Below, one piece after another: positions 15,034-25,140 of a stretch of 44,598 nt of DNA. Source of the DNA: Deltaproteobacteria bacterium 13_1_40CM_4_68_19 (GTDB lineage Bacteria > Myxococcota > Myxococcia > Myxococcales > 40CM-4-68-19); NCBI GenBank assembly GCA_001918155.1, contig MNFJ01000124.1:1-44598 (forward strand). Reading direction: 5' to 3'. Position 1 is the first letter of the stretch, and every line of letters starts with the position of its first letter. The position numbers and the translations under genes are program-made. The notes below the pieces were generated by a model. It searched no databases. It had not been told where the DNA came from and was given only the letters and a program-made list of their open reading frames with translations.

Positions 15034-15580
15034 GCGGAATGAACCTCGGGACGCCGGCGAATGCGCGCTCCCAGGTCGCCCCGAGCGCGCGTTCCTCCAC
15101 GCGGATGCGGATGCGCAGCAGCACCAGATTCAGCGCGGAGAAGACCACCGCGCAGATCCAGGCGCCGTGCAGGAGCGGAACGCACAGCATCTCGATCGCG
15201 ACCGCCACGTAGTTGGGATGCCGGACGAACCGATACGGACCAGCGCGGACCGGCGATTCGCCGGGAACCACGATCACGCGCACGTTCCAGCGCCATCCGA
15301 GCGTCGAGATCGCCGACCAGCGCAGCGCTTGCGCTCCGAGCGCTGCGGCCGCGCAGGCCCATCCCAGGGCGCCTGGGAATGGACGGCGCAGCAGCAGCAC
15401 CTCCGCCGCGCATGCGGGCAGGAACAGCGCGTGCATGGCCGCCATCCAACGGAAATGGGCCGCGCCGCTCTCGACGCCCGAATGCGCCAGCGCGATGCGC
15501 GCGTTCCTCCGGGACAGCAGCAGCTCCGCGATCCGCTCCCCGCCGAACAGCGCGAGAAATGCCAGGTACGCCGCTACCAT
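15026..15580 (-). CDS. Isoprenylcysteine carboxyl methyltransferase-family (SrsB-like) methyltransferase
   Basis: Membrane protein of 184 residues with four to five hydrophobic segments. It carries the ICMT/PEMT C-terminal signature GPYRFVRHPNYVAV and the downstream RVEERALGATW segment, which bind S-adenosylmethionine at the membrane. ICMT-family enzymes next to type III polyketide synthases (SrsB in Streptomyces) O-methylate alkylresorcinol-type products, and the same role is inferred here. The ATG at 15580 lies inside the last codons of the synthase gene (7-nt overlap), and its end overlaps the acyl carrier protein start by 8 nt. Confidence 0.88.
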   Translation of the reverse strand: MVAAYLAFLALFGGERIAELLLSRRNARIALAHSGVESGAAHFRWMAAMHALFLPACAAEVLLLRRPFPGALGWACAAAALGAQALRWSAISTLGWRWNVRVIVVPGESPVRAGPYRFVRHPNYVAVAIEMLCVPLLHGAWICAVVFSALNLVLLRIRIRVEERALGATWERAFAGVPRFIPHG

Positions 15581-16668
15581 TCGAGCAGCACCAGCTCCGA
15601 GCAGAAGCCGGGACCCATCGCCAGCAGCAGGCCGCGGTCGCCGGGACGCGCCTCGCCGGCAGCGAGGAGATCCGAGAGCACGAAGAGCACGGAAGCAGAA
15701 GAAAGGTTCCCGACGTTCTGCAGCGAGTCCCAGCTGCGCTGCATCGCGGAGCGCGGAATCTCCAGCGCCTCCTCGCATGCCTCGAGCACCTTCGGCCCGC
15801 CCGTGTGGCAGATGAAATGAGCGATGTCGCTCCGCTTCAGCTCCTGCGTTGCCAGGAAGGCATCGACGTCCGCGCGAAGCTTTTCCCGGACCAGCTGCGG
15901 GACGGCGGGCGAGAGCACAACCTTGAACCCGGAATCGACCACGTCCCATCCCATGACGCGCTCGCTGTCCGGGTAGAAGACGGAGCGCGTCGCGGCGATG
16001 CGCGGACCGTGGCCGCGCGCCCCGCCATCCAGCACCGCGGCGGCGGCGCCGTCGCCGAACAGCCCGCTGGCGATGATGTTCGGAATGGAGAGGTCCTCGC
16101 GCTGCAGGGTGAGCGAGCAGAGCTCGACGGCCAGCAACACGGCCACCTCGCCCGGGCCGCCGCGAAGGACGTCCGCGACGCGTGAAAGGCCCGCCGCACC
16201 CGCCACACAGCCGAGCCCGAAGATGGGGACGCGCTTCACGTCCGCGCGAAGGCCGAGGCGATCGACGAGCCGCGCGTCGATCGACGGCGTCGCGATGCCG
16301 GTGACGGTGACGAAATAGAGGTGGTCGACCTGCGCGGGCGTCACGTCCGCCGCGAGGAGGGCGCTCCGGACCGCCTCCGCCCCCAGATCGACCGCGGCCT
16401 CCGTCCAAGCGGCGTTGCGAGCGGCAAAGCTCCGCAGCTCGCGATACCGCTCCAGCGGCAGCGCCAGGTGCCGGCCTCCGACGCGCACCGCCCGGTGGAG
16501 TTGCTCCAGGCGCTCCAGGTTGAAATGCTTCTGACCCCACAGCTCACGAAACGCCGCGAGCAGCGTGTCCTGATCGGCGAAGTTCGGCGGCAAGGCCTGC
16601 GCGACCGAGAGGATGCGCGCCGTGGCCGCGCGACTTCCAGAGTCCTGGGCGTGAATCCGCTCGCGCAC
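15574..16668 (-). CDS. Type III polyketide synthase (chalcone/stilbene synthase family)
   Basis: Protein of 364 residues from a GTG at 16668. It has the full catalytic triad: Cys154 in FGLGCVAGAAG, His288 in FICHTGGPK and Asn321 in NVGNLSSAS, with spacing close to that of plant chalcone synthase. GLFGDGAAAAVL and the C-terminal MGPGFCSELVLLEW loop are also typical. The enzyme should extend a fatty acyl starter with malonyl-CoA and cyclise it to an alkylpyrone, alkylresorcinol or related phenolic lipid; which product cannot be told. It is the first gene of a five-gene overlapping operon with methyltransferase, carrier protein, acyl-AMP ligase and flavoenzyme. Confidence 0.93.
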   Translation of the reverse strand: MRERIHAQDSGSRAATARILSVAQALPPNFADQDTLLAAFRELWGQKHFNLERLEQLHRAVRVGGRHLALPLERYRELRSFAARNAAWTEAAVDLGAEAVRSALLAADVTPAQVDHLYFVTVTGIATPSIDARLVDRLGLRADVKRVPIFGLGCVAGAAGLSRVADVLRGGPGEVAVLLAVELCSLTLQREDLSIPNIIASGLFGDGAAAAVLDGGARGHGPRIAATRSVFYPDSERVMGWDVVDSGFKVVLSPAVPQLVREKLRADVDAFLATQELKRSDIAHFICHTGGPKVLEACEEALEIPRSAMQRSWDSLQNVGNLSSASVLFVLSDLLAAGEARPGDRGLLLAMGPGFCSELVLLEW

Positions 16669-16674
16669 GTACGT

Positions 16675-16679
16675 CCTCC
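16675..16679 (-). promoter_or_regulatory. Shine-Dalgarno site fixing the GTG start of the type III PKS
   Basis: GGAGG on the minus strand, 6 nt before the GTG at 16668. No ATG gives a protein of family length in this frame, so this site decides the start. Confidence 0.6.
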
Positions 16680-16780
16680 GCGCACCAGATGGCGCGGTGC
16701 GCAAGGGTAACTCGCCGATCGCCCGATCGCACACGAGACAAGGAATCAGCGACGTCGACGTTGACCGCGACGGCGACGGC

Positions 16781-17224
16781 TTATTCCCACAGCATCTGCT
16801 TGCCGGCCTTCGTGTTGACGACCGCGCGAAGCGCCGCGAGGTCGCTCTCCTCCGGCCGCCACTCGCGCAGGTGCGACAACCGTCGCATCGCGAACCGATG
16901 GCCGGCGGCGACCACCGAAGTCCCGGCATGGGGATGCGCCACGTGCGGCGTCTCGGAGCGCGCCAGCTTGGCGGTCTCGTGCCGGTGGTGCGGATCGACC
17001 CGGCCCTCGTCGTTCACGCGGATCTTCGAGAACCAGACGCGGGCGACCTGCGCCGGCTTCGCGCCGTGCAGCTCGAGCGACATCCCGATGCAGCGGACGA
17101 AGCCGTCCCCGTCGTGGCGGAGCGCGCGTTCGCCGGACAGGAAGCGCTGCATCCATGGATTGGAGATCCGGCGGATCGCTCCCGGGCCCGTGCGCTGGAA
17201 GAACCACAGCGTCCTGCGCGACAT
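16781..17224 (-). CDS. Hypothetical protein
   Basis: Protein of 147 residues from the ATG at 17224, preceded by GGGAGGAAC. It is not recognised. It is basic and Trp/His-rich, begins SRRTLWFFQRTGPGAIRR, contains a DPHHRHE segment, and is predicted soluble with no signal peptide. It lies 112 nt upstream of the type III polyketide synthase on the same strand and 55 nt downstream of the DUF488 gene. Cotranscription with either is possible but not shown. No catalytic motif could be assigned. Confidence 0.6.
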   Translation of the reverse strand: MSRRTLWFFQRTGPGAIRRISNPWMQRFLSGERALRHDGDGFVRCIGMSLELHGAKPAQVARVWFSKIRVNDEGRVDPHHRHETAKLARSETPHVAHPHAGTSVVAAGHRFAMRRLSHLREWRPEESDLAALRAVVNTKAGKQMLWE

Positions 17225-17750: not shown

Positions 17751-19811
17751 GTGCCCGCCCCCCGTCTGCTGGTCCTCGCAGATCCGAAGATGCTCCCCGC
17801 GCTCGCCGGCGGGCTCCGCGACGGCGGCAGGTTCGACGTCACCGCGGTGTCGCTCGCCGACGCCGCCGCGGCGCAGGCGGCCGCGGCTGGAACCGATGCC
17901 GTCGCGGTCTTCTATGGCGGTCCGGGGGCACCGCTGGCTGCCACGCTGCAGGCCGTCGCGCCGAAGTTTCGGGAGCGCGGTGGCCGCGTGGTGGCGGTGC
18001 TGCAGCGCGAGCAGGCCGGGCAGCGCGACGAGTGCTTTCGCGCTGGCGCCAGCGACCTTCTCTTCATGCCGACGCCGAAGGACCAGTTCGTCGAGCGGTT
18101 GGCGGCGTCCGTCGCGCTCGCGTTCGGTGCCGGGGATGGCGCTCCCGCGGCCGTCGCGGTGGCGACGCGCAGCGCTCAGACGCGCCTCGACCGCGCCACC
18201 GTGTCGACGGCCGGCATCGAATCGCCTTCGCAGCTTCCGTTGAAGGCTGGCGAGACGGTGCGCCTCTCGTGGGAGACGTTCCAGAGTTGGGGCCTCGTCG
18301 TTCGCGGCGGCCCCTCCGCCCAGATCCGGTTCGCCGGTCTCACCCCGGATGAGGAAGGGAAGATTCGCGAGTGGGTGAAGTCCGGAGCGCAGCAGCAGCC
18401 CGCGGCGGCCCCAGCCTCGCCGCCGCGTCCCGCTGCGCCGTCCCCATCGCCGCAGCGGCCGCCGGCGACGCCGGCGCAGGTCACTCCCGCGCCACAGCGT
18501 TCGACGTCGACGCCGCAGCCGGACTCCACGCCCGTGAGATCGCCGCCGGCTGCGCAACCCTCCATGGGGGCCCGCGCGGCGCCGGTCGCCGGACCGCCGC
18601 CGGGATTCATGGATCGCAAGCCCGCTCGCCCACAGGGACGCGCGGCGTCGGCCGGTCCGGACGTCTCGCCGGCCTCGAGCGCGGGTGCCGCGCGCGCCGC
18701 GCCTGCGCTGTCGCCGACGCCCCCTCAGTCGCCCGGGGCCCGGCCCGCACCGCAGTCATCGAACGGGGACGGCGGGCTTTCGACGCTCTTCGACGCCGAC
18801 GGGGCCACGCCGGCGCCGGCGACCAAGCCACCGTCCCCGGCCAAGCCACCGCCCCCGCCGCCCGGACCTCCCTGGCCGGTGCCGGTGGCCATCGATGTCT
18901 GCAAGACGGCCGCCATGCACCTGCTGCAGGGGAAAAATCCAGGGCGCGACATCCCCACCAACGTCACCGCATCTGCGCGCAAGCTGACGGCATTGCTCAG
19001 CCTGGGCGAGCGCGCCTCGATCGAGAAGAGCGGGATCGATTCGCATTTCGTCCACGCGCTCGGCGCGAGGATCGCGCTCGAGGTAGCGACCGCCGAGGGT
19101 ACGCGGCTCGCCTCGGCGAACGTCAGCCCCACGGTCGACGCCGAGGCGATGGCCAGCTTGACGAAGCTTGCCGATGAAGCCGCCGGCCGCCTGCAGAAAG
19201 AGGCGAACGCGGCCATCGGCAAGGGCGAGGTGGAGAACCTGCAGCTCGTCACGGCGGCCAGCGCGTCGCTGAGCCGCGATCTGCTCAACCTGAAGGAGAC
19301 CGGCGATCGGTTTCGCGGCTTCGGTGCCGCCCCGCGGCTCGGGGCCGGGGCGCTCGATCCCGACGTGGTGCTCCCCGGCCAGCCCTTCCGCCCGAAGCCC
19401 CTTTCGCAGCAACAGACGCTGGCGCCGGTCAAGCCGGAGCTGCGCGATTTCCACGGTCTCGACGAGCGGCCTGGCCGCGCAAAGGGCGTGTTTGCGGTGC
19501 TCCTGGTGGCCGCGTGCGTCGGACTCGCCGTCTATTCCTTCCATTTCGCGATCCCGCAGCACGTGGAGGTCCAGGCCAGCTCGGCAGGACCGGGCGTGCA
19601 GCGCATAGACATCACCGGTCCCGCGGCGGTGGTGACGATCGCGCCGCAATGGTTGACGGCGTCCGAGACGAATCTGCCGAAGCTCGTCCGGGTGCTGCGG
19701 GCGCGGCAGGTGACGAAGGCGGTGTTGATGCTTGCGAACGGGACGGCCGCCGGGATCGTCGACGTCGCTGCCGGCAAGGCGACCGGAATGCCGGTGCCGG
19801 CGCCGAATTAG
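17751..19811 (+). CDS. Degenerate receiver/PilZ-like membrane protein with long Pro-rich linker
   Basis: Protein of 686 residues from a GTG at 17751 behind GAGGAGG. Residues 1-125 have a response-regulator alternation of strands and helices, but the phosphoacceptor site reads DAVAVFYGG, with no Asp at the expected place. Residues about 140-215 resemble the end of a PilZ domain (VSTAGIES, VRLSW, IRFAGLTPDEE) without canonical RxxxR and DxSxxG residues. A Pro/Ala-rich linker (about 215-375) leads to a helical domain (about 380-525), one transmembrane helix (579-601) and a C-terminal domain of about 80 residues outside the membrane. It may be a phosphorylation-independent scaffold or signalling protein (inference). 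A hairpin terminator follows. Confidence 0.75.
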   Translation: MPAPRLLVLADPKMLPALAGGLRDGGRFDVTAVSLADAAAAQAAAAGTDAVAVFYGGPGAPLAATLQAVAPKFRERGGRVVAVLQREQAGQRDECFRAGASDLLFMPTPKDQFVERLAASVALAFGAGDGAPAAVAVATRSAQTRLDRATVSTAGIESPSQLPLKAGETVRLSWETFQSWGLVVRGGPSAQIRFAGLTPDEEGKIREWVKSGAQQQPAAAPASPPRPAAPSPSPQRPPATPAQVTPAPQRSTSTPQPDSTPVRSPPAAQPSMGARAAPVAGPPPGFMDRKPARPQGRAASAGPDVSPASSAGAARAAPALSPTPPQSPGARPAPQSSNGDGGLSTLFDADGATPAPATKPPSPAKPPPPPPGPPWPVPVAIDVCKTAAMHLLQGKNPGRDIPTNVTASARKLTALLSLGERASIEKSGIDSHFVHALGARIALEVATAEGTRLASANVSPTVDAEAMASLTKLADEAAGRLQKEANAAIGKGEVENLQLVTAASASLSRDLLNLKETGDRFRGFGAAPRLGAGALDPDVVLPGQPFRPKPLSQQQTLAPVKPELRDFHGLDERPGRAKGVFAVLLVAACVGLAVYSFHFAIPQHVEVQASSAGPGVQRIDITGPAAVVTIAPQWLTASETNLPKLVRVLRARQVTKAVLMLANGTAAGIVDVAAGKATGMPVPAPN

Positions 19812-19913: not shown

Positions 19914-20453
19914 CTAGAATTCTGGGACCTCTACGACGTCGTAGGTCCCGCTGCCATGCAGCACTTCCGTATAGAGGTAGTTGCCGCTCAAGCCGGTCGC
20001 GCAGGTGATCGCGTCCGCTCCGAATCCAGGGAACGAGCCGCAGGCCTGCAGCGTCACGTCGTGTACCCTGCCGTCCGCGGCGGTCGCGCCCATCGTGTAC
20101 CAGTAACGCATGCGGATGGCGCCTTCCGGCGGGAATGGGAGATCGGTCCAGCCGCTCGCGTTCGTCACCCAAGGCGCGGACTCCCCTGGACGGATCGCGG
20201 AAGAGGGATTGATCGCGCTGACCGCCGAAGCATCGAGCGTCTGCGGGGTGGAGAAGGTCCCTTGGCTATCGTGCAGGTTCTTGAAGTACAGGCGGAACTT
20301 GCTCATGATGGCCTGCAGCTCGGAGCGGCGGCCCCGCGCCGTGATCCGCTGATATCCCGGGATCGCGATGCTCGAGAGGATCCCGATGAGCGCGACGACG
20401 ATCATCAGCTCGACCATCGTGAAACCGCGTGCCGGCCTGAACCTGCGTCCCAT
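19914..20453 (-). CDS. Type IV prepilin (PilA-like)
   Basis: Protein of 179 residues. A short basic leader (MGRRFRPARG) is followed by the class III prepilin signature FTMVELMIVVALIGI: cleavage is expected after the Gly, with Phe at +1 and Glu at +5. The rest forms the N-terminal helix and a soluble head with two Cys residues (CGSFPGFG and AITC) that could form a disulfide loop. It would be processed by PilD and assembled into a pilus or pseudopilus. No other pil genes are nearby. It begins 59 nt after the dinB stop on the same strand. No clear sigma-54 promoter was found. Confidence 0.9.
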   Translation of the reverse strand: MGRRFRPARGFTMVELMIVVALIGILSSIAIPGYQRITARGRRSELQAIMSKFRLYFKNLHDSQGTFSTPQTLDASAVSAINPSSAIRPGESAPWVTNASGWTDLPFPPEGAIRMRYWYTMGATAADGRVHDVTLQACGSFPGFGADAITCATGLSGNYLYTEVLHGSGTYDVVEVPEF

Positions 20454-20512
20454 GGTGCAATTGTGCGGTGCGAAACGCGCGCCGCGCAACATCCCCGATG
20501 GCCCACCCCGAC

Positions 20513-21667
20513 CTACTTCTTGCGCGCCTGCACCAGGTCGGCCGGCAAGACGGCGTCGGTGCCGAACTTTTCCGCGATCGCGTCGAGGGAGCGGTTCAGC
20601 CGCTCTCGCTTCTTCCTCTCGGCGTCGAACAGCCCCAGCTGGGGCGCGCCTGTGTGCAGGTCTCCGGCGTGCACGCCGGTCAGACGGACGGGGTAAGCTT
20701 CCACCTTACCGAGCAGCCGGACCGCGACGTGAAAGATCTCGGCGGAATCGTCGGTGGGCAGCGGCAGCGTCTCCTGACGAGTCACCACGCGGAAGTCGGC
20801 GTACTTGATCTTCAGATGGACCGAGCGCGCCTGCATGCCCGCCCTGCGCAGGCGGGCCCCCACCCGCAGCGCCTGCTCGTGGATGAACGGGAGCAGCTCT
20901 TCGCCTTCCAGATCGTCGTCGAACGTTTCCTCCGCGCCGATGCTCTTTGCCTCCACGTCCGGTTCAACGGCGCGCGGATCGATCCCGTTCGCCAGATCGT
21001 GCAGCCACGGCCCCATCGATCCGAGCTGCGCCTCCAGGTACGCCGGATCGGCGCGCGCCACGTCGCCCACCTTGCGCAGCCCGAGACGCTGCAGCTGTTC
21101 GTCGGTGCGCGGCCCGACGCCCCACAAGCGCGAAGCAGGCAGCGGGGCGAGGAACTCGCGCACCTGACCGCGCGGCACCTCGAGCAGCCCATCGGGCTTG
21201 CTCAGCTCGGAGGCGATCTTGGCGGCGAACTTCACCTCCGCGATCCCGACGCTGGCGGTGAGCTGCGTGCGCTGGCGGATGCGCGCCTTGATACCTTCGG
21301 CCTGCGCCCGCGGCGTCCCGAGCAGCGCCTGCGAGCGCGTCACGTCGAGGAAGGCTTCGTCGAGGGAGAGGCCCTCCACCTCGGGCGTGAAGGAATGGAA
21401 GATCTCGAAGACCTGATCGCTCACCGCGGAGTACTTCGCGAAGTCGGGCGGAACGACGATCAGCTGCGGGCAGAGCCGCAGCGCACGCGCCATCGGCATC
21501 GCCGAGCGGACGCCGAAGGGACGGGCCTCGTAGCTGGCCGCGCAGACCACGCCCCGCCGCGAGGCGCCTCCCACCGCCACTGCCTTGCCGCGCAGGCGCG
21601 GGTCGTCGCGCTGCTCGACGGACGCGTAGAACGCGTCCATGTCGACGTGCAGGATGGCCCGCTCCAT
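20513..21667 (-). CDS. dinB: DNA polymerase IV (Y-family translesion polymerase)
   Basis: Protein of 384 residues. It has the Y-family palm motifs HVDMDAFYASVEQRDDP at the N-terminus and LSLDEAFLDVT around residue 100, which supply the metal-binding acidic residues. The helix-hairpin-helix segment WGVGPRTDEQLQRLG and a little-finger domain follow. It bypasses damaged bases at low fidelity. The ATG at 21667 is preferred because DinB proteins begin directly before the HVDMDAFYA strand. The C-terminus has QLGLFD, a close match to the beta-clamp-binding consensus. It is divergent from the HDAC-fold gene across a 25-bp gap holding a symmetrical ATAGTA element; no LexA box was recognised. Confidence 0.93.
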   Translation of the reverse strand: MERAILHVDMDAFYASVEQRDDPRLRGKAVAVGGASRRGVVCAASYEARPFGVRSAMPMARALRLCPQLIVVPPDFAKYSAVSDQVFEIFHSFTPEVEGLSLDEAFLDVTRSQALLGTPRAQAEGIKARIRQRTQLTASVGIAEVKFAAKIASELSKPDGLLEVPRGQVREFLAPLPASRLWGVGPRTDEQLQRLGLRKVGDVARADPAYLEAQLGSMGPWLHDLANGIDPRAVEPDVEAKSIGAEETFDDDLEGEELLPFIHEQALRVGARLRRAGMQARSVHLKIKYADFRVVTRQETLPLPTDDSAEIFHVAVRLLGKVEAYPVRLTGVHAGDLHTGAPQLGLFDAERKKRERLNRSLDAIAEKFGTDAVLPADLVQARKK

Positions 21668-21673
21668 CGGCGC

Positions 21674-21686
21674 GGCATAGTATGCC
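21674..21686. promoter_or_regulatory. Symmetric GGCATA-G-TATGCC element between divergent dinB and HDAC genes
   Basis: Perfect 6-bp arms around one base fill half of the 25 bases separating the two start codons. The element contains TACTAT on the minus strand and TAGTAT on the plus strand, each placed where a -10 box would give a nearly leaderless transcript. It could be a shared operator or a bidirectional -10. No -35 box was identified. Confidence 0.4.
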
Positions 21687-21692
21687 CCCCGG

Positions 21693-23438
21693 ATGCTGGC
21701 GAGCATGGAAAACCGTGTGCGCCGCTGGCTCTACGGGCGCGATCTCGCCGTCTGGTATGCGCCCGAGTACCGCTGGCCGCTCAGCGCGCTCGAGGCGCGA
21801 ACCGGGTTCCAGACCCGCCGGGCGGCCTTCGCGCTCTGGTACCTGCTCGAGCGCCGCGCGCTCGGCCGGCGGAATCTCCGTCGACGCCGCCGTGCCGAGT
21901 ATCAGGAGCTGGCCCGCGTCCATACGCCCGAGCTGCTCGATTCCCTGGGGCGGCCGGACACGCTTGCGCGCGTATTCAGCGTCGACCCCTCCGACGTTCC
22001 GGTCGACGAGGTGATGAGCTCGGTGCGCCTGGTCTGCGGCGCCACCATCGCCGCCGCGCGCGAGATGCTCTCCGGCGCGGGCCCGCGAGAGGTCGGCCGG
22101 CGCGCGCTCAATCTTCTCGGCGGATTCCACCACGCGACCCCGGATGTGCCGGGCGGGTTCTGCCCGGTGAACGACGTGGCCATCGCGATCGCCGCGGTGC
22201 GCGCCGAGGGATTTCGCGGGCGCGTGCTGGTGCTCGATCTGGACGCCCATCCGCCCGACGGCACCGCGGCGTGCCTGGCTCGCGATCCGTCGTACTGGAT
22301 CGGATCGATCTCCGGATCGGACTGGGGGGCGATCCCCAACGCCGACGAGACCGTGCTGCCCGAGCGGGCCGGCGACGCGGAATATCTCGCGGCGCTCGAC
22401 GCGCTCCTCGAGCGCATGCCGCACGGGGAGCTGGCGTTCGTGCTCGCGGGAGGCGACGTGCTGGCCGGAGATCCGGTCGGCCAGCTCGGGCTTTCCCTCG
22501 AAGGGTGCCGGGAGCGCGACCTGCGCGTGGCGGACGCATTGGTTCGCGTGCCTTCGGTCTGGCTTCCTGCCGGCGGGTACACGCTCGACGCCTGGAAGGT
22601 GCTGGCCGGGACCGGTCTCGCGCTCGCGCTCAGGAGCCGGTCGCGGATCGCGCGCGACTACGATCCGCTGGTCGCCAGGTTCTCCGCCATCTCGCGCACG
22701 CTCGCTCCCCAGGACCTGGGCGAGGCGACGACGGAGATGGACGGCGTCGCCGAGCAGCTCGGAATCGCCACGCCGCGCCGGCGCCTGCTGCTCGGGTTCT
22801 ATAGCGCCGAGGGCCTGGAACACGCGCTGGAGCGGTACGGCATCCTCGGCGAGCTGCGGCGGATGGGGTACGGCCCGTTCCGCGTCGAGGTGCAGGACGA
22901 GGGAGTGGGGCAGAGCGCGAGGCTCCTCGACGTGCCGGGCGGGCAGGCCTTGATCGAGACCGTGTTCGAGCGCCGCGAGGTCGCCGGCGCGCAGATGCTC
23001 TACGTGCACTGGCTTGCGCTTCGCAACCCTCGCGCCCGGTTCTCGGACGAGCGCCCGCAACTACCCGGCCAGGACGTGCCGGGACTCGGGCTGGCGCGCG
23101 AGATGGCGGAGCTGCTCTCGCGGATGGCGGCGCGCCTTGGCCTGGAAGGGGTCGCGTTCCGGCCCTCGCCCTACCACCTGGCGTTCCGTGGGCGCGAGGT
23201 GATGCGCTTCGTCGACCCGGCGCGGCAGGGCCGCTTCGAGGCGCTGGTCGATCTGCTGAAGGACGTCCCTCTGGTCGACGCGACGCGGGCGGTGGCCGAA
23301 GGCCGCATCCGGCTGAACGGCGCGCCGTACTCCTGGGAGACCGACGAGATGGTGAGATGGCTCGAGCCACGCCCTGACGATCGCGCCGCGATCGACCAGG
23401 CGAAGGAGGCTTCTCACTTCACGATCGCTGGGGTGTAG
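21693..23438 (+). CDS. Histone-deacetylase-fold amidohydrolase with an uncharacterised C-terminal half
   Basis: Protein of 581 residues; an ATG at 21705 would shorten it by four. Residues about 1-320 are a class II/IV-like HDAC domain. It has the charge-relay pair in GGFHHATPD (H146, H147), zinc ligands in LDLDAHPPDG (D184, H186) and AGDPVGQL (D260), and the catalytic Tyr296 in PAGGYTLD. Zn-dependent deacetylation of acetyl-lysine, acetylpolyamine or a small amide is expected. Residues about 345-581 form a second region containing LPGQDVPGLGLAREM and FVDPARQGRFEAL that I do not recognise. The gene starts 25 bp from dinB, transcribed away from it. Confidence 0.85.
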   Translation: MLASMENRVRRWLYGRDLAVWYAPEYRWPLSALEARTGFQTRRAAFALWYLLERRALGRRNLRRRRRAEYQELARVHTPELLDSLGRPDTLARVFSVDPSDVPVDEVMSSVRLVCGATIAAAREMLSGAGPREVGRRALNLLGGFHHATPDVPGGFCPVNDVAIAIAAVRAEGFRGRVLVLDLDAHPPDGTAACLARDPSYWIGSISGSDWGAIPNADETVLPERAGDAEYLAALDALLERMPHGELAFVLAGGDVLAGDPVGQLGLSLEGCRERDLRVADALVRVPSVWLPAGGYTLDAWKVLAGTGLALALRSRSRIARDYDPLVARFSAISRTLAPQDLGEATTEMDGVAEQLGIATPRRRLLLGFYSAEGLEHALERYGILGELRRMGYGPFRVEVQDEGVGQSARLLDVPGGQALIETVFERREVAGAQMLYVHWLALRNPRARFSDERPQLPGQDVPGLGLAREMAELLSRMAARLGLEGVAFRPSPYHLAFRGREVMRFVDPARQGRFEALVDLLKDVPLVDATRAVAEGRIRLNGAPYSWETDEMVRWLEPRPDDRAAIDQAKEASHFTIAGV

Positions 23439-23492: not shown

Positions 23493-24158
23493 CTACGCCA
23501 GGTCGATGCGCTGGATTGCGTGGTACGGCACGATCGTGAGCCGATCGCTGTCCAGCTTCAGCACGACCGAATATCCCGCTGCGTGGTGGTCCATCTGGAG
23601 GATGCGGCCGGCCACCGACTGCCCGCCGGAAAGGTGCAGCATCACCGGGCGCAGCTCGTCGGCAAGGGCCTTCAGGTTCAGCGTGTGCGCCCCCGTGGCC
23701 TCGATGCTGAATGCCACCGCCTCACGGTACAGCTCGTTCGTGGTGCGCAGGCGGGAGGCGACAATGCCTGCCATGTTGCGGAAGAACGCCGCCGCGATGT
23801 CCGGGTGCTCGCGCTGCACCTTGGCGAAGCTCTGCCGCGAAAGCACCAGGAATTCGCTGGCCTCGGTGGTACGCGCGGTGGCGCTGCGGCGCGCGCCGTC
23901 GATGAAGCTCATCTCGCCGATCACGTCGCCGGGCCCGAACGAGGCCAGCGACCGGTCGACGTCGCCGCGGATGTTCTTGAAGATGTCCACCCGGCCGCTC
24001 TGGACGATGAACAGCGAGTCGCCCGCGTCGTTCTCCCGGAACAGCTCCTCGCCGCCGACGAGATTGCGCTCCTCGCAGGCGTCGAGGACCACGTCGGCAT
24101 CCTCGGACGTGAGCTCGGCGAACAGGCGCCAGCGGTTCAGCTTGCCTTCGTCGGCCAC
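23493..24158 (-). CDS. Cyclic nucleotide-binding protein with Hfq/Sm-like C-terminal domain
   Basis: Protein of 221 residues. The GTG at 24158 is taken as start because the only upstream in-frame option is a TTG. Residues about 8-125 are a CAP-type cNMP-binding domain with the phosphate-binding cassette GDVIGEMSFIDGARRSATA (78-96). There is no winged-helix DNA-binding domain. Instead, after a helical segment, residues about 168-220 read like a small Sm fold: RPVMLHLSGGQSVAGRILQM followed by VVLKL and YHAIQRIDL, comparable to the PVSIYL...L.G.I and YKHAIS motifs of Hfq. Ligand-controlled RNA or protein binding is a hypothesis. It follows the ketopantoate reductase-family gene by 37 nt. Confidence 0.8.
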   Translation of the reverse strand: MADEGKLNRWRLFAELTSEDADVVLDACEERNLVGGEELFRENDAGDSLFIVQSGRVDIFKNIRGDVDRSLASFGPGDVIGEMSFIDGARRSATARTTEASEFLVLSRQSFAKVQREHPDIAAAFFRNMAGIVASRLRTTNELYREAVAFSIEATGAHTLNLKALADELRPVMLHLSGGQSVAGRILQMDHHAAGYSVVLKLDSDRLTIVPYHAIQRIDLA

Positions 24159-24195
24159 GCCTCGTGCATCGCATGGACCCCGAGAGGACCGCAAG

Positions 24196-25098
24196 TTATC
24201 CGGCGTGGAGCACGAGACCTGCGTAGATGGCGCGATGTGTGGGCACGGACAACCCGTGCTTCTGGGCGCGGCGGACGACGGCGCCGCTCAGCCAGGGCAG
24301 CTCGAGGCGGCGGCCGCGCATCACGTCCTGCGCCATCGAAGCGTACATCGCCGCGGGGAGTGTATCGACCGCCTCCAGAGCCTTCTCAGCGAACCCCTCG
24401 TCGAGCCGCGCGCCTTCGGCGCGGGCGACCGAGGCCGCTTCCCGCAGTGCGTCGAGCAGCATCTCCCGCGTCGCGGGATGGCCACGGACCTCGCCGATTG
24501 GCTTGCGCGTCAGCGCCGTCATGCCGCTGAAGGCGGTGAGGAAGGCGAACTTCTCCCAGGTGACACGGCGGATGTCTTCGCTGAGGACGGTCTCTACGCC
24601 CGCGGATCGGAAGGCATCGACTGCCGCTTGTAGCCGCGGCGTTCGCGAGCCGTCGAGCTCGCCCAGGGTGACGCGCTGCAGCCTGCCGGTGTGGGCGACG
24701 GTGCCGGGCTCTGCGATGACGGCGCCGATGTGGGTGACCCCGCCCAGCACGCGTTCGCGCCCGATCGCGCCGGCGAGGACCTCGTCCTTGTCGACGCCGT
24801 TCTGCAAGGATACGGCCGCCGCGCCGGGGACGCGCGCCACCGCCCGCGCCGCATCTTCCGTGTCCCACAGCTTCACCGCCACCACCACCAGATCCGCGGG
24901 GCCCGCCTGCGCCGGGTCGTCCACCACCCTCACGCGAAGCTCCGCATCTCCCAGTTCGCTGCGGATCCGCAGCCCGCTCTTGCGCATGGCCTCGGCGTGC
25001 GCGCCGCGCGCGACGAACGCCACCTGGTGCCCGGCCTGCTGCAGGCGCGCCCCGTAGTATCCGCCGACGCCACCGCTCCCCATCATCACGATCTTCAT
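24196..25098 (-). CDS. Ketopantoate reductase-family oxidoreductase
   Basis: Protein of 300 residues. The N-terminal NADP-binding motif MGSGGVGGYYGARLQQAGH, the KLWDT lysine region, LQNGVDKDEVL and WEKFAFLTAFSGMTALTRKP place it in the ApbA/PanE family (2-dehydropantoate 2-reductase, EC 1.1.1.169). The real substrate may differ, because the family includes many paralogues in which the usual Asn residues of the active-site helix are replaced, as here. If authentic, it makes pantoate for coenzyme A synthesis. It is divergent from the YfhO-like gene over a 45-bp gap filled by an inverted repeat. Confidence 0.85.
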   Translation of the reverse strand: MKIVMMGSGGVGGYYGARLQQAGHQVAFVARGAHAEAMRKSGLRIRSELGDAELRVRVVDDPAQAGPADLVVVAVKLWDTEDAARAVARVPGAAAVSLQNGVDKDEVLAGAIGRERVLGGVTHIGAVIAEPGTVAHTGRLQRVTLGELDGSRTPRLQAAVDAFRSAGVETVLSEDIRRVTWEKFAFLTAFSGMTALTRKPIGEVRGHPATREMLLDALREAASVARAEGARLDEGFAEKALEAVDTLPAAMYASMAQDVMRGRRLELPWLSGAVVRRAQKHGLSVPTHRAIYAGLVLHAG

Positions 25099-25102
25099 GG
25101 GC

Positions 25103-25140
25103 GATTGCTTGGATAACGCCCGTCTCCGTGGCAAGCAATC
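25103..25140. promoter_or_regulatory. 9-bp inverted repeat filling a divergent intergenic gap
   Basis: GATTGCTTG (25103-25111) and CAAGCAATC (25132-25140) are perfect arms 20 bases apart. They lie between the start codons at 25098 (minus) and 25144 (plus), 4 and 3 bases from each. It may be a shared operator, or a leader hairpin occluding one or both start codons. Confidence 0.5.

Follow-up and report, generated by a model that had tools for sequence, protein, structure and literature searches.

A cyclic-nucleotide-binding domain joined to a divergent Hfq/Sm-like domain as a possible regulator of PilT-class pilus ATPases

The window, by which we mean the whole analysed stretch of 44,598 nucleotides from the soil bacterium Deltaproteobacteria bacterium 13_1_40CM_4_68_19, carries a gene (23493..24158, minus strand) for a protein of 221 amino acids. 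In this protein a cyclic-nucleotide-binding (CNB) domain is followed by a helical linker and a C-terminal domain that profile tests and predicted strand order support as a divergent relative of Hfq/Sm proteins. As its relatives often lie next to genes for type IV pilus motors, we think it more likely that the protein lets a cyclic nucleotide control such a motor than that it regulates RNA. Our leading interpretation, which we favour without holding it firmly, is that the protein may be an Sm-like regulator that is gated by a cyclic nucleotide and acts on PilT-class ATPases of type IV pili. The combination is a new domain architecture built from known parts and not a new fold.

The gene starts with GTG at 24158 and stops at 23495-23493 on the minus strand. 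The GTG start is supported because the orthologues L013 and L025 have open frames of 221 codons that begin at the same first residue; an alternative start is the TTG at 24194. Full-length relatives range from <30% to 97% identity. Differences between the window ORF and L013 concentrate at the third codon position (17/16/72 at positions 1/2/3, and 9/6/28 for the Sm part alone), thus marking the ORF as a conserved coding sequence. The neighbouring genes in the window encode a ketopantoate reductase (24196-25110, minus strand), a histone-deacetylase-like protein (21693-23438, plus strand) with ~280 additional C-terminal residues that belong to no family, DNA polymerase IV (20513-21706, minus strand) and a prepilin-like protein (19914-20492, minus strand). 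The prepilin-like gene lies ~3 kb from the CNB-Sm gene, an arrangement that is conserved across the genus. Further away are a protein of 686 aa (17751-19811, plus strand), which has a long proline-rich middle and no Pfam match and is conserved in the genus, and a type III polyketide synthase of the chalcone synthase family (15574-16929, minus strand).

The CNB domain (residues 31-117; 23808..24068, minus strand) matches PF00027 with an E-value of 1.3e-20 and a score of 73.6 bits, well over the cut-off of 27.5, and its top PDB match is Thermus CRP (E 2.3e-19). The phosphate-binding cassette GEMSFIDGARRSA (residues 81-93, with E82 and R91; 23880..23918, minus strand) is conserved among 22 family ORFs, with G in 22/22, E in 21/22, R in 22/22 and S/T in 21/22. 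In CRP and PKA, the Glu and Arg of this cassette hold the cyclic phosphate. Since both are kept, binding of a cyclic nucleotide is likely, and conservation of the cassette across all 22 ORFs makes nucleotide gating of the protein plausible. The initial annotation had described a normal cNMP-binding domain that lacks a winged helix, and both parts of this description hold: besides the intact cassette and the strong PF00027 match, no helix-turn-helix or winged-helix Pfam family matches the protein at E<=10. The linker (residues 118-161; 23676..23807, minus strand) carries the family-conserved pattern RLR.TN..Y......IEATGA...LN and is helical in the AlphaFold2 (AF2) model, where helices span residues 119-139 and 144-147 and confidence is low beyond residue 134. 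A match elsewhere in the same genome (C109, residues 34-213) was set aside, as it is a CNB protein with a C-terminus unlike the Sm-like domain.

The assignment of residues 162-220 (23499..23675, minus strand) as Sm-like comes from the AF2 model, hhalign and searches of Pfam, NCBIfam and PDB profiles. With the isolated domain, the sole Pfam matches were Hfq (E 0.044) and an Hfq-related family (E 0.24), both under the curated cut-off; the Hfq model scores 13.7 bits on the window protein, against a cut-off of 27, and 15-20 bits on relatives. Comparison of a profile of 22 relatives with 32 Hfq sequences by hhalign gave a score of 23.2 (P 4.9e-4). None of 200 column-shuffled profiles reached this score (mean 10.7, sd 2.2, maximum 18.5), and the reversed profile scored 10.4. 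The claim of a C-terminus with an Hfq-like Sm layout is borne out by these values, and the relationship is distant since the hhalign probability is only 32%. Hfq and Hfq_rel_Cyano were the only NCBIfam families matched by several members (6/14 each). Weak Pfam matches among the 14 members were to Rof (7), Hfq_1 (6), Hfq (5) and PRC_RimM (3). Against the PDB, the family profile retrieved cyanobacterial Hfq first (3hfn, E 0.01) and then mostly Hfq and SmD1 chains; matches to DARPins were rejected as an artefact, being confined to columns 6-37, summed over repeats and drawn from one engineered family. At the place of the Hfq sequence YKHA, the family has a PYHA motif (residues 211-214; 23517..23528, minus strand), with P in 22/22, Y in 22/22, H in 21/22 and A in 20/22 ORFs.

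In the AF2 model, which was built from 9 sequences, the Sm-like domain consists of a helix (162-168) and five strands (172-176, 181-190, 197-202, 207-211 and 215-220). We regard this model as supporting but not decisive for an Sm-like fold, because block pLDDT values over the strands are 51-81 and the CNB core is poorly modelled. Prediction of the C-terminus alone without an alignment gave a pLDDT of 45, and the full Sm topology was not seen. Foldseek was uninformative on the Sm part, because the PDB matches listed for the full model were all CNB structures and matches to viral models were weak and mostly to unnamed proteins.

The fusion is kept at full length throughout the genus (7/7 searched genomes), and beyond the genus 16 non-redundant relatives share it, down to ~25-30% identity. 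These outside relatives belong to Myxococcota and to a second phylum, which we infer to be Desulfobacterota. In the phylum of the window, a full-length fusion is also found in another class (L041); the second phylum contributes L014-L016, L050-L063 and L163. The fusion is rare, with 8/195 genomes of the window phylum, 10/291 genomes of one class, and matches in 5/395 genomes of the second phylum, one of which is marginal and to a protein of another kind. Among the genomes searched, the Sm-like domain was seen only in fusion with a CNB domain.

In part of the family, the genomic neighbours suggest a pilus motor as partner. In eight genomes of two phyla, a gene for an ATPase called PilT-type from its sequence (PF00437, T2SSE) adjoins the CNB-Sm gene on the same strand. 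It lies upstream in L010, L014, L015 and L016 and downstream in L124, L126 and L125; in L164 it is again directly beside the CNB-Sm gene. L164 was added after the pattern had been noticed, and the other seven cases preceded it. Only a few bases separate the two genes in L010 and L164. With 2-7 PilT-type ATPases per genome among some 4,000-5,000 genes, we estimate that adjacency by chance would occur at ~0.2% per locus; the eight cases represent only two or three gene orders. No PilT gene stands beside the CNB-Sm gene in the window species, in most of its genus or in the nine more distant members L123 and L127-L134. L010 has two close relatives, L011 and L013, in which the flanking genes are like its own but enclose no PilT, so that PilT was gained or lost there. 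The linked PilT proteins end in a C-terminal tail GF.GPW; as genomes without a nearby CNB-Sm copy also have this tail, a docking role for it is unproven.

Two alternative readings concern the C-terminal domain itself. That it is another small barrel, such as the PRC barrel of RimM, is improbable. PRC_RimM gave weak matches in 4/12 members in one search and 3/14 in another, equalled the Hfq match in one genome, and shares the pattern G....G...IP....ID with the family. In hhalign, however, the PRC_RimM score was 9.7 (P 0.33), below the shuffle mean and as high in 67/100 shuffles; RimM was also absent from the PDB matches and from the NCBIfam families matched. Moreover, a PRC barrel would need one more strand beyond the last residue of the protein, and a helix stands ahead of strand 1. 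Profile comparison and structure prediction, as the initial annotation had proposed for the C-terminus, thus favour Hfq over RimM, with the helix and five strands predicted at moderate confidence. It is likewise unlikely, if less so, that the protein is a nucleotide-gated RNA chaperone whose Sm-like ring binds RNA and replaces Hfq in a lineage that lacks it. Hfq supplies the nearest curated families, and none of 60 genomes of the order, one of which is the 75% complete window genome, has a canonical Hfq above the cut-off; at E<=0.1, the Hfq model matched only the Sm-like domain of this family there, in three species. But at the places of R16, R17, Y55, K56 and H57 (E. coli Hfq numbering), the window protein has A166, D167, P211, Y212 and H213. 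Over the 22 ORFs, the R16 place is occupied by A, I, S, G or V and the R17 place by D, E, T, S, A or N, never by Arg or Lys, and the K56 place is Tyr in 22/22, giving PYH instead of YKH. As the rim arginines and K56 of Hfq are not kept, RNA binding by the Sm-like domain is not supported. The protein is also not a simple or general Hfq substitute, because L014-L016 carry canonical Hfq as well as the CNB-Sm protein and most Hfq-less genomes of the window order have neither. The proposal of a post-transcriptional RNA regulator is thus not supported, since these Hfq residues are missing and the recurrent genomic partner is a PilT-type ATPase and not an RNA gene. Canonical Hfq occurs in 56/58 genomes of the order to which L014 belongs. 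At L045 (G197:C135:18686-18865), a genome with a normal hfq elsewhere has an additional, divergent Hfq-like gene whose reading frame contains a TAA, and further divergent second copies are present in G899 and G879.

A different partner is conceivable but somewhat doubtful: the protein might, under nucleotide control, be an adaptor that serves some other machine of the envelope or of cell polarity, with the PilT adjacency as one of several uses. This would fit the lipid-transport genes MlaC, MMPL and MlaA, a conserved set, beside the CNB-Sm gene in L128, L129 and L131, and the genes for a bactofilin and an M99 cell-shape peptidase directly upstream of it in L134 (8786-10730, minus strand). The prepilin-like gene near the window copy speaks in its favour as well. 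Against it, PilT alone recurs across different gene orders and phyla.

In the reading that we prefer, regulation of a PilT-class ATPase, the CNB domain would bind a cyclic mononucleotide, probably cAMP. The helical linker, which likely dimerises like the C-helix of CRP, would relay the change to the divergent Sm-like barrel, and the barrel would act through protein-protein contact. We regard a PilT-class ATPase, a hexamer of the type IV pilus, as the most likely target; the cyclic nucleotide would then govern how active this ATPase is or whether it is recruited. The ligand, the oligomeric state, the contact with the ATPase and the direction of the effect are all inferred. It is possible, and we suggest it only tentatively, that the family is a new class of cyclic-nucleotide effector, in which an Sm-like barrel without RNA binding serves as an output domain that grips pilus ATPase hexamers and places retraction under direct cAMP control, without transcription. 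There are precedents for such a role: cyanobacterial Hfq, which is probably no RNA binder, attaches to a C-terminal extension of PilB and is required for assembling pili (PMC12288463, PMC8092324), and the Sm-like protein Rof inhibits the Rho hexamer (PMC11018626). If the proposal is true, then together with Hfq-PilB and Rof-Rho it would hint that Sm-like barrels are generally used as regulators of hexameric ATPases. For Myxococcota and Desulfobacterota, it would also offer a testable direct path from a cyclic nucleotide to the pilus motor.

Sm-like proteins are chiefly known for forming rings that bind RNA, and a fusion to a CNB sensor departs from that; our literature search found no paper on such a CNB-Sm/Hfq fusion, and the libraries searched contained no curated model of one. 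Canonical Hfq (PF17209, TIGR02383) shares the helix with five strands, the patterns PV..L..G....G.I and HAI..I and the conserved Gly and His. Unlike it, the window protein falls under every curated cut-off, lacks R16/R17, Y55 and K56 and is fused to a CNB domain. CRP/FNR regulators have in common with it the CNB domain, the intact cassette and the long C-helix, but the window protein has the Sm-like domain in place of their helix-turn-helix. Rof/YaeO (PF07073) is Sm-like, is weakly matched by half of the members (7/14) and binds a hexameric ATPase, Rho (PMC11018626), yet it has no sensor domain and its target differs from the one proposed here. Cyanobacterial Hfq (Ssr3341/Asl2047; NF047718) has an Sm-like barrel too and supplies the top PDB match of the family profile. 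This Hfq works via a type IV pilus ATPase, PilB, whereas the proposed partner here is PilT, and it is a stand-alone ring protein of ~70 aa without the CNB domain to which the window protein is fused.
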